DNA of 64,000 nt from Pseudomonas entomophila (GTDB lineage Bacteria > Pseudomonadota > Gammaproteobacteria > Pseudomonadales > Pseudomonadaceae), in NCBI RefSeq assembly GCF_023277925.1, contig NZ_CP063832.1:434001-498000 (forward strand), written 5' to 3'. The translations under genes and the position numbers were made by a program. Positions within the stretch are counted from its first letter, which is position 1; the number at the start of each line of letters is the position of its first letter. This document shows, in pieces, positions 38,236 to 43,957 of this stretch. The notes under the pieces were generated by a model. That model searched no databases. It had not been told where the DNA came from and worked only from the letters and a program-made list of their open reading frames with translations.

Positions 38236-39195
<960 letters not shown>

Positions 39196-39514
39196 CGTCG
39201 ACGGTTCCTGGGAATGAGCCGGCGCAAACGGGTGGAAGCGACTGCCGGGCAAGGGCTGATACTTTAATCCATCCGGGGGGGCGGGGACCAATGGAGGTTT
39301 GCAAAAATCGTGTAAAGCAGGGGAGGGGGTGGTCTGGGAGGGGCGCAGTGGTTGGCGGGTGTTCGGCGAGAGCCTTGCAGCGCCCTTCAGATCGTGCGCC
39401 GCCCGCGCGGCGCATCGCGGATGAATCCGCTCCTAAGTCTGTTGCAACGTGCCGCACCTGTCAGGCCATGGTTGCCTGCCGAAATATCGCGTCGTACAAA
39501 CAAGGCGAACAACC

Positions 39515-39665
39515 ATGGCCTATCAGGCCGTGCACGCCCTAGCCCAGGTCACCGGCCACGATCCTGATGATGGTGTCGATCCACGAAGTCGAATCGCTGC
39601 GCGTGTTGCTTGAATCGGCGTTGATCCAGGTGCAGATGTCGGCGCAGCCGCAGGTACTGCACTAG
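39515..39665 (+). pseudogene. Possible frameshifted small gene
   Basis: ATG 39515 opens a frame beginning MAYQAVHALAQVTGHDP that stops at 39613, while ATG 39567 in another frame opens MMVSIHEVESLRVLLESAL and stops at 39665. The second has an amphipathic, protein-like look. One frameshift near 39560-39570 would join them in a ~50-residue protein. This may be a decayed gene or two chance frames. Confidence 0.25.
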
Positions 39666-39681
39666 GCCCTGGCTGGCCCTG

Positions 39682-39748
39682 TTCGCCGGCAAGCCGGCTC
39701 CTAAGAGGGGGCTGCGATTCACCTGTAGGAGCCAGCCTTACTGGCGAA
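39682..39748. repeat. REP-like inverted repeat
   Basis: TTCGCCGGCAAGCCGGCTCC and TAGGAGCCAGCCTTACTGGCGAA are imperfect inverted arms around AAGAGGGGGCTGCGATTCACC. Same class as 51657-51741. Confidence 0.75.
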
Positions 39749-39931
39749 AGGGCCTGCCCAGGCCCCACCACTCCCCGGCGGGATACTCGGTTAGTACTCC
39801 AGTCAGAGAGTTGTTTTTATCCGTTTCTCTGCATCGGCTAGCGCGAAAAATACTATTGATGGAAATAGGCTTTCTAATCCAGTGAGAACCCAAATCGATT
39901 TCATAGTGGTTTTTTGGAGGGTTGTTGGACT

Positions 39932-39967
39932 AAAAGCGCCGAGCGAGGATTGCTCTTCGTTCGGCGC
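39932..39967 (-). terminator. Terminator of the immunity-like gene operon
   Basis: Read on the minus strand, GCGCCGAACGAAGAGC pairs with GCTCGGCGC-side sequence (arms 39936-39946 and ~39957-39967, one G-T wobble) and runs into TTTTAG. It lies about 20 bp after the stop of the gene at 39986. Confidence 0.7.
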
Positions 39968-39985
39968 ATATGATGTGAAATCTTG

Positions 39986-40324
39986 TTATCCTTTATTGCT
40001 TTGGAATAAGTCTATGTAAGTATCATTGTCATAGTAGTAAACAAATGCATCTGCTAATTCGAAAGCGTTCGCCCGTGGTCGTTGTGCTTTGGCATTTTCG
40101 ATAATGCTTTGTATGATATCGATGCCGAGCGCATAATACAGGTCATTGTCCAGTGCGAATTTTGGCCTGTCAGGGTTCGGCTCGTTTTCGAAGTCATCGG
40201 GATCAAGTGCGGCACAAAGTGTATCCTTGTTCCAAGGGGCTCCATGAGGCATGTAAAGCGCGAAGTCCCACGGTTGGTTGTCGATGTCTGCAAGCACGGA
40301 TTCGAGTGTTTTGAGCTTCATCAT
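39986..40324 (-). CDS. Small acidic protein, probable immunity protein (DUF7716-like)
   Basis: A 112-aa acidic soluble protein beginning MMKLKTLESVLADIDNQPW. From memory it resembles proteins labelled DUF7716, which occur beside polymorphic toxin genes; this is not checked. Base composition is much more AT-rich than the core genes, as is common for toxin/immunity cassettes. The gene lies downstream of the truncated rhs gene on the same strand. Its start codon touches the CTAG end of the inverted-repeat element at 40325-40427, whose end supplies AGGA six bases before the ATG. Immunity function is inferred from position, size and acidity. Confidence 0.65.
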   Translation of the reverse strand: MMKLKTLESVLADIDNQPWDFALYMPHGAPWNKDTLCAALDPDDFENEPNPDRPKFALDNDLYYALGIDIIQSIIENAKAQRPRANAFELADAFVYYYDNDTYIDLFQSNKG

Positions 40325-40427
40325 CTAGTGTCCTGTCTCGAAATGCGTTATCTTTTGGCGAGTGGCTTTGGTGTTCGGCCAAGGCGCCACCAAAAGTGAA
40401 CAGCTTATTTCCGAGACAGGAAACTAG
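40325..40427. mobile_element. MITE-like element with terminal inverted repeats and CTAG flanks
   Basis: A ~95-bp non-coding segment with near-perfect ends: TGTCCTGTCTCGAAAT on the left and, read from the right, TTTCCTGTCTCGGAAAT. Both ends are bordered by CTAG (40325-40328 and 40424-40427), which would fit a 4-bp target duplication of the YTAR kind made by IS5-type elements. The inside holds a smaller CTTTTGG/CCAAAAG stem. No transposase is present. It may be a MITE, or a conserved hairpin between two cassette genes. Confidence 0.55.
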
Positions 40428-40466
40428 CCAGAAAAAACGCCTCCCAAAAAATTAATTTGAGCTTGA

Positions 40467-40922
40467 CTACAAATTAGTCAAATGCTTTAGGATGCCCGGG
40501 TATTCAGACGAAAATTCTTTCGATTTTATAAATGAAGTTGCAATTTTTCTTTCGTTGTCTGGTGATTTTTTTATATATTCAAGTAGTAGTTCAAAGTCGC
40601 CGTAATCAAGTTCAATGCCGACTAAGGTTGTTGCCCATTCTTTATTTGGGGCTCGTTTGATTATGCCATCAAGCGCTGCGATTAAAGCCGGGTAGAAGAT
40701 GCGGCGATCAGCTGCCTCAAGTATATTTCGGGTGCGTTCCTGAATGCCGAAGTCATCGGCGTCAGAGAATGTCTGAAGAAGCGCTAATGCTACTTCGTAG
40801 CTCATATGCTCTTCGGCTTCACTTAGCAGAGTCAGGAATTTCTCATCATCCCCCTCGTTTTCGAATTTTTCACATGTGTGCAATCGTGTGCGCCAGTGAT
40901 CAAAATTAAAAGTCATTGTCAT
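40467..40922 (-). CDS. Probable immunity protein, unrecognised family
   Basis: A 151-aa acidic, all-alpha-looking protein starting MTMTFNFDHWRTRLH. Repeated helix pairs (for example ALALLQTFSDADDFGIQ and TTLVGIELDYGDFELLLEYI) look HEAT- or TPR-like and recall Imm30-type immunity proteins, but I cannot assign it. It lies 9 bp after the truncated rhs gene on the same strand and is visibly AT-rich. The position directly behind the toxin C-terminus is the usual place of the cognate immunity gene. ATG 40922 is taken as the start; ATG 40916 is an option. Confidence 0.65.
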   Translation of the reverse strand: MTMTFNFDHWRTRLHTCEKFENEGDDEKFLTLLSEAEEHMSYEVALALLQTFSDADDFGIQERTRNILEAADRRIFYPALIAALDGIIKRAPNKEWATTLVGIELDYGDFELLLEYIKKSPDNERKIATSFIKSKEFSSEYPGILKHLTNL

Positions 40923-40931
40923 TTCGCATTC

Positions 40932-42359
40932 TCACTTTGTCAGCATTTTCTGACACTTTGCATATGCAAGCATCTCTCGCATTGCGACATTGTACCGGCG
41001 CGGATCTCCAGCGTTACGTGCTACCAGGCTGAGGTACTCGATCGGGTCATAGTGCGGCTTACCGACCTTGGGCAGCGGGTAGTCGTGGCTGCGGCCGTCG
41101 CTGTCGTGGAACACCACGCCCTTGTCCACGACATCGAGGCAGGTGGTGAACTCGGTGATCCAGCGGGCGCCGAGGCTGCCGTCGTCCAGCTTGGCCAGCC
41201 GCGAGTTGTACACCCGCGTCCAGTTGACCGGGAACGGCCCGGACAGCGCGAAATCCTGGTGGGCCAGCGTCTCGTCACCGAGCACATGGCCGATGCTGAA
41301 GCCGGTGCAGGCGCAGGGGCCGTTCTTCTCGGGCTTGGGCTGCTTGTTGGCGCGGACCTGGCTGCGTACCACCTCGGTCGGCCCTTCCGCATGAACATGC
41401 CGGGCCTGATGAGTAACGCCGGGGCGGATGGCGACGGCCATGCCCGGGCGGCGCGGGTTGGCCAGCACGGTCTCGAGCAGGCGGGTCAGCAGCCAGGCGA
41501 TGCTGTTTTCCATACCAGCGCTGCCCAGCGCTTCCAGGCGCCGGGGCACGACCTTGGCCAGGTCTTCGAGGGTGCGGATCAGTGGCCCGAGCAGAGTGTC
41601 CAGCTCGCCCTTGAAGTGGCGGGCGACGCTGTTGTAACCGTCCTTGAGGCTGCCCTCGGTGGCGTTGGCCAGGGCCGACAGGGCCAGGCGCCAGGCGTCG
41701 GTCTCCAAGGCTGAGTCGTACAGCGCCACCTGGGCCATCTGCGCGCGGGCCAGGCGGTGGCTGCTGGCGGCATCCAGCTTGCCACGGGCGGCGGCGGCAA
41801 GGGTCTTGGCCAAGGAAGTAAACAACAGGCGTGCGGTGTCGGCAGCGGCACTGAGCATGGCCGGCAGCTGAGCCAGGGCCTCGCGCACGTAATGCTCCAG
41901 GGCACCGCGGATATTGGCGTGCAGGTGGCCGTCGATGATCTCCAGGATCACCGCGCCGATGTGCGCGCCGGGGCGGCGGCGCAGGGTCTGGCGGGTCAGC
42001 TGCAGCACCGGGCGCAGCACCGTGCGGGCCCGGGATAGGCCAGGCGGATAGGGGACGATACCGATCAGGTTGATGCCCAGGCTGACCCACAGCAGCGGGT
42101 CGGGGGAAGGGTTTTCGACCAGTTCGAGGATGTCGATCAGCGCGTCCATGCAGGACAGGGCGTTGGCCATCAGCGGCACACTTTCGGCGGCCTGGCGCAG
42201 CAGTTGCAGGTCGACCAGGCCGTAGCTGATTTCCCGCAGCCAGTGGTCGACGGAAGCGGCGGCGGCGCCGAGGTCTTCGCTGAGGAGAGTGTCGAGGGGA
42301 GCGATGGCGATCTGGATTTCGCGCTCGCTGGGCGCGGGAACGGCGGGTGTAGCAGACAA
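40932..42359 (-). pseudogene. Rhs-type polymorphic toxin, core and toxin domain deleted
   Basis: A 475-aa frame. Residues 1 to ~345 form the Ala/Leu-rich helical N-terminal region typical of pseudomonad Rhs effectors without a PAAR domain. From ~349 (GFSIGHVLGDETLAHQDFALSG) a DUF6531 domain begins, with FPVNWTRVYNSR and VVFHDSDGRSHDYPLP, which normally leads into over 1000 residues of YD repeats. Here it stops at about residue 449 (LSLVARN) and is followed by a 26-residue tail (AGDPRRYNVAM...KMLTK). No YD repeat, core DPxGxx motif or toxin domain remains. The tail runs straight into the immunity gene, so it probably is the far end of the original toxin. Likely non-functional as a toxin. Confidence 0.8.
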
Positions 42360-42498
42360 AGTGAAAGGGCCTTCCTAGGCGGGGGACGTTGAGGTCCCGG
42401 GTGGTCCGTGAGGGCGAAATGATACTAAGGCAGGGGCGGTGCGGCCATGGGGGAAACCCTGAGGTGGGTGTGGGAATGCTGAGGGGGCAGCTGGCCTG

Positions 42499-42584
42499 TG
42501 TAGGAGCGGCTTCAGCCGCGATGCAAGCGGCGCGGTGCCTGACACCCGCTTCGCGGGTGATCGCGGCTGAAGCCGCTCCTACAG
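42499..42584. repeat. REP-type inverted repeat
   Basis: TGTAGGAGCGGCTTCAGCCG and CGGCTGAAGCCGCTCCTACA flank an inner CCCGCTTCGCGGG hairpin. A further partial arm, GCTGTAGGAGCGG, follows at 42599-42611. It separates the rhs remnant from the lhgO operon. Confidence 0.88.
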
Positions 42585-42628
42585 GGACTGTGCCGTTGCT
42601 GTAGGAGCGGAGAGTCTGTAACGGGGGC

Positions 42629-43957
42629 TCAGTTCTTCGCCTTCGAATGCCGCCACCCTTGGTCAAAGCACGCGAACACCACCACCAGCACCCCGGCCAC
42701 CGCCAGGATCAACGCCACGCCATCGGTGGAGTGGGTCGCCGAGCCGGCCACCAGTGCCAGACCACCCAGCGGCGCCAGGCCGCCGGCCACGGCTGTGCCG
42801 ATCTCGCGCCCGGTGCCGAAGCCGGACGAACGTGTCTGGGTCGGGAACTGCCGGCTGAGGAACGACCCCTGCGGGGCGAACATCATCGGCGCCAGGATCC
42901 CGGTGCCCACGGCGATGGCCACGTAGATCAGCGTCGGCTCGCCGGTCGACAGCAGTTGCAGGAACGGGAACGCGAACAGCGCCGACAACACCCCGCCCAG
43001 CATCAACACGGTCTTGCTGCTCCACCTGTCGCACAGCCAGCCGAAGAACGGCACGGCGAAGATCGCCACCAGGCTGGCCAGGGTCACCGACAGTGAGGTG
43101 ACATGGGCCTCGACGCCCTTGAACTGGGTCAGGTACGCCAACGAGAAGGTCTTGAAGATGTAGCTCAGGGCGTTATAGCCCACGGCCACGAAGAACACCA
43201 CGGCCAGGCCCTTGAGGTCGTTCCTGAACAGCAGCTTGAGCGGCGACACCTGCGGCGTGTCGTCGGCCTTGTCCAGCTCCTTGAAGTCCGGGGTCTCGGG
43301 AATGCTCTTGCGCACCCACAGCCCCACGGCCACCAGGACGATGCTGGCGATGAACGGGATGCGCCAGCCACCGGCGAGCAGGAACTCGTTGCCGTTCATG
43401 GTCAGCAGGTACACGGTCAGCGACGACAGCAGCAGGCCCAGGTTCAGCCCCAGCGCCGGCCAGGCACCCTGGCTGCCGCGCTTGCCTTCGCTGGCGTGCT
43501 CGTAGGAGGTCACCGCCGCGCCGGACAGTTCGGCGCCGGCGCCCAGGCCCTGGATGATGCGGATGACCACCAGCAGGATCGGCGCCCAGATGCCAATGGT
43601 GGCGTAACCCGGGATCAACCCGATCAGCGCGGTGCACACGCCCATCATGCAGAAGGTGATCACCAGTACTTGCTTGCGCCCGAAACGGTCGCCCAGGTAG
43701 CCGAACAGCACGCCGCCGAAGGGGCGGGCGATGAAGCCGATGGCGAAGGTGGAGAACGCCAGCAGCGAGGCCACCGCCGGGTTGCTCGGGTCGAAGAAGA
43801 TCTTCGAGAAGACGATCGCTGCCATGGTGGCGTAGAGGTAGAAGTCGTACCACTCCAGCATCGAGCCGAAGATGGTCGCCGCCGCCACCTTGCGCAGGCG
43901 CTTGCGTTGTTGTTCGGGCGTTTCGGTCGCGGCCAGGGCCGCCTCGTGTACCGACAT
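42629..43957 (-). CDS. MHS-family MFS transporter
   Basis: A 442-aa, 12-helix transporter of the metabolite:H+ symporter family (relatives: ShiA, ProP, KgtP). The start 'FGSMLEWYDFYLYATMAAIVF' region and the loop motif GYLGDRFGRKQVL are hallmarks. It lies 45 bp downstream of lhgO on the same strand, so it probably imports a substrate of that operon, such as 2-hydroxyglutarate, 2-oxoglutarate or a precursor. The substrate is inferred from context only. Confidence 0.9.
   Translation of the reverse strand: MSVHEAALAATETPEQQRKRLRKVAAATIFGSMLEWYDFYLYATMAAIVFSKIFFDPSNPAVASLLAFSTFAIGFIARPFGGVLFGYLGDRFGRKQVLVITFCMMGVCTALIGLIPGYATIGIWAPILLVVIRIIQGLGAGAELSGAAVTSYEHASEGKRGSQGAWPALGLNLGLLLSSLTVYLLTMNGNEFLLAGGWRIPFIASIVLVAVGLWVRKSIPETPDFKELDKADDTPQVSPLKLLFRNDLKGLAVVFFVAVGYNALSYIFKTFSLAYLTQFKGVEAHVTSLSVTLASLVAIFAVPFFGWLCDRWSSKTVLMLGGVLSALFAFPFLQLLSTGEPTLIYVAIAVGTGILAPMMFAPQGSFLSRQFPTQTRSSGFGTGREIGTAVAGGLAPLGGLALVAGSATHSTDGVALILAVAGVLVVVFACFDQGWRHSKAKN

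Follow-up and report, generated by a model that had tools for sequence, protein, structure and literature searches.

A probable dead Rhs effector gene with two whole immunity-like genes behind it in Pseudomonas entomophila

The short rhs frame described here is probably the remnant of a dead Rhs effector gene, reduced by a net loss of its middle, with imm1 and an older imm2 standing behind it as whole orphan immunity genes. In the window (the whole 64-kb stretch of DNA that was analysed), the frame opens like an Rhs effector and, past an abrupt joint, closes like the tip of an Rhs toxin (Table 1). The locus would have started as an Rhs effector gene with its immunity gene, imm1, behind it. The loss, about 1,100 codons net (~3.3 kb) when measured against full-length relatives of 1554-1575 residues, would have removed the cage and the toxin domain except for its last 29 residues and left the effector dead, the ends being joined at a match of three bases. 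Both imm1 and imm2, the latter already a left-over, would have stayed whole and become orphans. The short frame presumably makes nothing useful, and the immunity genes are presumably expressed and protective. On this most likely reading the locus, a gutted rhs gene with orphan immunity genes, is of a known kind.

Table 1. Positions of the features in the window
Feature	Position	Strand	Details
Remnant of Rhs effector gene	40932..42359	-	475 residues, TTG start
Tse15-like clade domain region, residues 1-335	41355..42359	-	PDB 8uxt chain A, E 1.2e-7 over residues 16-312
DUF6531 domain, residues 359-427	41079..41285	-	Pfam E 1.6e-16
Joint, GTA common to both sides (codon 446)	41022..41024	-	Letters of sister genes, G203 and window compared
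29-residue tail (447-475), C-terminus of lost Rhs toxin domain	40935..41021	-	Matches toxin C-termini; stop codon 40932-40934
imm1, 151 aa, Imm30-like orphan immunity gene	40467..40922	-	Homology; Pfam Imm30 itself gives no match
imm2 (DUF7716, 112 aa), likely orphan immunity gene from a different Rhs toxin	39986..40324	-	Pfam E 8.4e-28
Flank of ~260 bp, recurring downstream of four other rhs genes of the same genome	39512..39772	.	DNA comparison, 84-90% identity
Palindromic repeat of ~90 bp, upstream of the remnant gene	42495..42584	.	Also upstream of sister genes; found at many places across the genome

The remnant frame and its joint

The preliminary description had seen in this frame an N-terminal region and the start of a DUF6531 domain, and both are there. 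The N-terminal clade domain is present, since its region matches Tse15 by itself; the match of the whole frame covers residues 16-439 with E 4e-23. The clade domain of Tse15 is described as a 12-helix bundle, and the suggestion has been made that it anchors the toxin to the T6SS apparatus (PMC11461821). Of the Rhs cage or core the frame itself holds nothing recognised by Pfam, which returns DUF6531 alone. The YD-repeat core is likewise absent from the window, as the preliminary description had said: tblastn with residues 447-1444 of the sister protein L072 gave nothing at E 1e-3. A Shine-Dalgarno-like AGGAAGG and the upstream region are retained before the frame. Scans with consensus sequences gave nothing clear, with three promoter-like sites against 1.0 expected and two terminator-like sites against 3.6 expected.

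The preliminary description was right about a jump in the frame and wrong in its figures: the break lies at residues 446/447, not near 449, and the tail has 29 residues rather than 26. Four sister genes elsewhere in the genome are 96-98% identical to the window copy over residues 1-447 and then continue into YD repeats; DNA identity with them ends at 41022, the closest two being L073 and L074. The G+C content in 200-base windows falls from 0.65-0.73 (41000-42399) to 0.34-0.52 (39800-41099), and the fall coincides with the joint. The sister genes read CTGGTA, the toxin gene of genome G203 reads GTAGC and the window reads CTGGTAGC, so that the two sides share GTA. The frame runs through the joint and stops 9 bp before the start of the intact 151-residue frame of imm1, a spacing that the preliminary description had given correctly.

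A full-length gene pairing the N-terminus of the window copy with the toxin of its tail was not found, which counts against the dead-effector reading, and the internal deletion is for that reason deduced from its two sides. The sisters on the left and the toxins on the right bear out a net loss of the middle, and so far the preliminary description, which had spoken of one clean in-frame deletion, is upheld. The word "one" is another matter: because no full-length ancestor was found at the site, a single deletion and a replacement are not separable. In a replacement, the rhs N-terminus would have come in from elsewhere or been converted, and illegitimate recombination would have joined it to the 3' end of a displaced toxin module. 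The three-base joint suits such an event, as does the mosaic of similarity that the sister copies form over the N-terminus; displaced toxin-immunity ends are published in Vibrio and, in the same source, discussed for Rhs (PMC5361080). We nevertheless regard it as unlikely, for it needs an extra incoming molecule, and nothing in the sequence demands one.

The genome carries the N-terminal stretch in five copies of ~1.5 kb each at 92-96% DNA identity, repeats of a kind that might mislead an assembly. An assembly artefact, or a deletion that arose in the sequenced culture, is nonetheless hardly credible. The genome is one closed contig of 5,755,740 bases, 100% complete, and a collapsed repeat joins copies at matching positions, whereas here unlike sequences meet at three shared bases.

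The lost toxin and the two immunity genes

The tail was found where the preliminary description had proposed to look, at the far end of complete toxins. It aligns with the C-terminal ends of three Rhs proteins (1573, 1575 and 1727 residues) and also, in a fourth (2475 residues), with a stretch 11 residues before the end; these four are the entire return of a search with the G203 toxin region, the G203 protein itself first among them. The local scores of the tail against the four toxins are 101, 96, 97 and 85, as against 40-44 for the top scorer among 300 shuffles of the tail per toxin, so the match is not due to chance. By eye, all four toxins (P0027-P0030) read ESHHMPADS and later SHG. The toxin region of G203 (locus L082) has no Pfam match up to E 10 and no PDB relative by sequence at E 1; a search with the profile of imm1 brought two hits, at E 0.25 and 0.72.

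In G203 the toxin is followed directly by a homologue of imm1: the Rhs frame ends at L082:7199 and the imm1 homologue occupies L082:7196-7648. The two immunity proteins are 33% identical (E 6e-21), a low figure that weighs against the dead-effector reading. When the 139-residue toxin region of G203 was searched against the genome of the window, one significant place came back, the tail itself (toxin residues 108-139, E 4e-6), and the next two matches had only E 0.31 and 0.43. The toxin domain is thus incomplete, with 32 of its 139 residues matched, the last ones only. Because no other part of the toxin was found in the genome, imm1 is an orphan. The claim of the preliminary description that immunity genes were kept after the loss of the toxin therefore stands: both frames are intact, and the genome appears to hold no cognate toxin for imm1 as far as toxins of the G203 type go, other toxin sequences being possible.

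The family of imm1 can be named with some reserve. Of its 33 database matches, itself included, two are named Immunity protein 30 domain-containing. The Pfam profile Imm30 (PF15565) does not match imm1 up to E 10, which again counts against the dead-effector reading, and it matches the G203 relative at E 0.017 with 15.6 bits, under the cut-off of 27. The imm1 protein contains D57-F58-G59, of which D57 and G59 do not vary across 16 sequences. Imm30 is described as mostly helical with a DxG motif and is paired with Tox-SHH in a published table (PMC3482391). Such a pairing fits imm1 and the SHH-bearing toxins, neither family being confirmed by Pfam. Relatives of imm1 occur in five of 398 genomes of the genus, that of the window counted, and across the class in two of 369 at E 1e-10, one of them the window's own; none was found in plasmid records.

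The second gene, imm2, appears to have another origin. Besides its own, 24 DUF7716 matches were found in 149 genomes, and six of the 11 for which loci were available are preceded on their own strand by an Rhs core motif, a count made with a narrow motif scan that can miss cores. In P. entomophila COR5, locus L115 encodes a DUF7716 protein with 87% identity to imm2, whose frame overlaps the last part of an Rhs frame; judging from this relative, imm2 was probably left behind by another toxin. The imm1-imm2 interval, read by eye in three frames, showed no recognisable remnant of a toxin. L115 and the end of a second COR5 locus, L032, have 1,111 identical bases in common (L032:16228-17338), and in L032 a full rhs gene of the window's subfamily, with 1571 residues, lies ~4 kb upstream of the Rhs core end and DUF7716. 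That core end has its own toxin tip, and with DUF7716 it appears to be a displaced toxin-immunity module. The arrangement in COR5 counts in favour of a replacement at our locus.

Sister genes and the fate of the short frame

DUF6531 occurs at 13 places in the genome, five of which, counting the window copy, share its N-terminus. Two sisters are intact, with open frames of 1554 (L072) and 1575 residues (L073). The other two are broken: L071 stops after residue 1283, and L074 has a frameshift near residues 805-829 and ends after 869. Three of the five copies of the subfamily are thus broken, each by a different lesion. L071 and L074 are located near 114 kb and 5,563 kb of the genome. Outside the subfamily, another rhs frame of the same genome (L078:1200-5165) is short at 1321 residues.

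The remnant frame does not look like one in long decay. Codon changes specific to one copy number, silent to changing, 7/2 in the window copy, 7/0 in L071, 6/2 in L072, 3/1 in L073 and 5/4 in L074, and the pairwise dN/dS of the window copy is 0.13 against L071, 0.19 against L072 and 0.14 against L073. The figures for the window copy count against a dead effector; they are compatible with a recent loss, with gene conversion or with continued use. Conversion between two broken copies had been suggested by bases 151-450, at which the window copy and L074 have one difference, and was dropped, as L072 differs there by just two. The link between the window copy and L074 comes down to the TTG start and the neighbouring bases.

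The short protein might, on the other hand, be in use. A clade domain without cage or toxin could bind VgrG and block or tune the loading of intact sister Rhs effectors, a role akin to the decoy or inhibitor in T6SS loading put forward in the preliminary description. That proposal draws on the kept clade domain and the undamaged frame, and on this point the preliminary description is not supported. The entire clade region, the ribosome-binding and upstream sequences and the frame are retained with few changing substitutions, and the two intact sisters are available as targets. These features have to be set against the TTG start, which replaces the ATG of three sisters and is common to another broken copy, and against the fact that a joint would fall in frame by chance in one case of three. 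VgrG is also distant. PF05954 has 11 matches in the genome, found within 5 kb at six of the 13 rhs places and at none of the five subfamily copies; the nearest to the window copy is ~156 kb away, with none within 150 kb. Use of the short protein is, on balance, very unlikely.

The distribution of the short form points the same way. A protein search scored 7,999 candidates and left 26 matches of compatible length, at least 12 of them named as partial. The tail is present in none of the 26, the scores of 18-27 being at the level of shuffled tails, so that no conserved form with this tail was seen; the preliminary description had considered that the 475-residue protein might be conserved as such in many genomes, and among these 26 it is not. 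One relative, P0014 (469 residues, 35% identity, a single metagenome sequence on a contig of 6,045 bases), parts from its relatives near residue 450 and has 14-19 unrelated residues from there to its end. It might be a second short form, which would favour use of the protein, or a break in the sequencing read. Three related loci are full length to a stop, with the 1571 residues of L032 already mentioned, 1556 in L033 and 1548 in L035, the last counted from the start of the match; two more, L034 and L036, are cut by contig ends and were left out of the full-length reading.

The site and comparable loci

The locus was compared with five relatives at its neighbours MoxR and MFS (G007, G015, G045, G024 and G025). 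The gap between the two genes is ~190 bp in G007 and ~210 bp in G015, with no rhs gene. In G045 and G024 the place of the rhs locus beside MoxR is taken by a gene of 426 or 440 residues (L097:6925-8205 and L112:8473-9795); it opens with a VGxFFDGTGNN-like motif, and we take it to be DUF2235-like. The stretch taken from G024 showed no MFS gene, and in G025 MoxR and MFS lie on separate contigs. From these neighbourhoods, the rhs locus looks like an insertion at a variable site, and the MoxR site may be a hotspot for secretion-linked genes. The ~260-bp flank lies behind rhs genes in four of 11 other stretches of the genome (L071, L073, L074 and L075) and shows no clear coding content by eye in six frames. 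Positions 38900-43200 matched 16 plasmid records over at most 5% of the query, at ~38900-39150, within the MoxR gene.

Several published systems resemble parts of the locus. Tse15 of Acinetobacter baumannii (PDB 8uxt) shares with the window gene the N-terminal clade region and the beginning of the Rhs part; unlike that gene, which is without cage, toxin or nearby VgrG match, it is described with a full cage, a toxin and a linked VgrG partner (PMC11461821). In Serratia marcescens Db10 orphan Rhs immunity genes are likewise kept in an rhs locus without their toxin, and an orphan Rhs immunity protein is reported to protect (PMC10539506). There, by that account, the immunity genes follow an intact rhs gene and protection was demonstrated, whereas the window has a gutted rhs gene and a protection that we infer. 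In Vibrio, arrays of retained immunity genes are described as left by displaced effectors, and one such gene stands, as here, beside a left-over effector 3' end (PMC5361080). The Vibrio arrays have a new effector-immunity pair in front, unlike the window, where the left-over end continues the reading frame of an N-terminus. The orphan rhs-CT fragment of Salmonella LT2 is also a broken piece of rhs coding sequence with linked immunity genes, and what survives in it is the toxin end, with the start missing, the reverse of the present locus (PMC3967940). Among titles and abstract openings of the open-licence literature, no rhs gene of exactly this kind, collapsed to its N-terminus with immunity genes kept, was found.

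Protection against related strains is plausible by analogy with the Serratia orphan immunity (PMC10539506), and imm1 probably still shields the cell against relatives in which the toxin is intact. It is a long shot that the collapsed gene makes a VgrG-binding clade-domain protein which slows or competes with the loading of the intact sisters and has been kept together with the immunity genes; were it so, the cell would give up one toxin, keep the protection and change which of its effectors fires. With the dead effector as the preferred reading, the joint offers a clear case of an Rhs weapon lost and its immunity genes kept, beside two intact sisters in the same genome. The locus also links an Imm30-like protein to an SHH-motif Rhs toxin, and DUF7716 to Rhs toxin ends, links that may help in the naming of orphan immunity genes.
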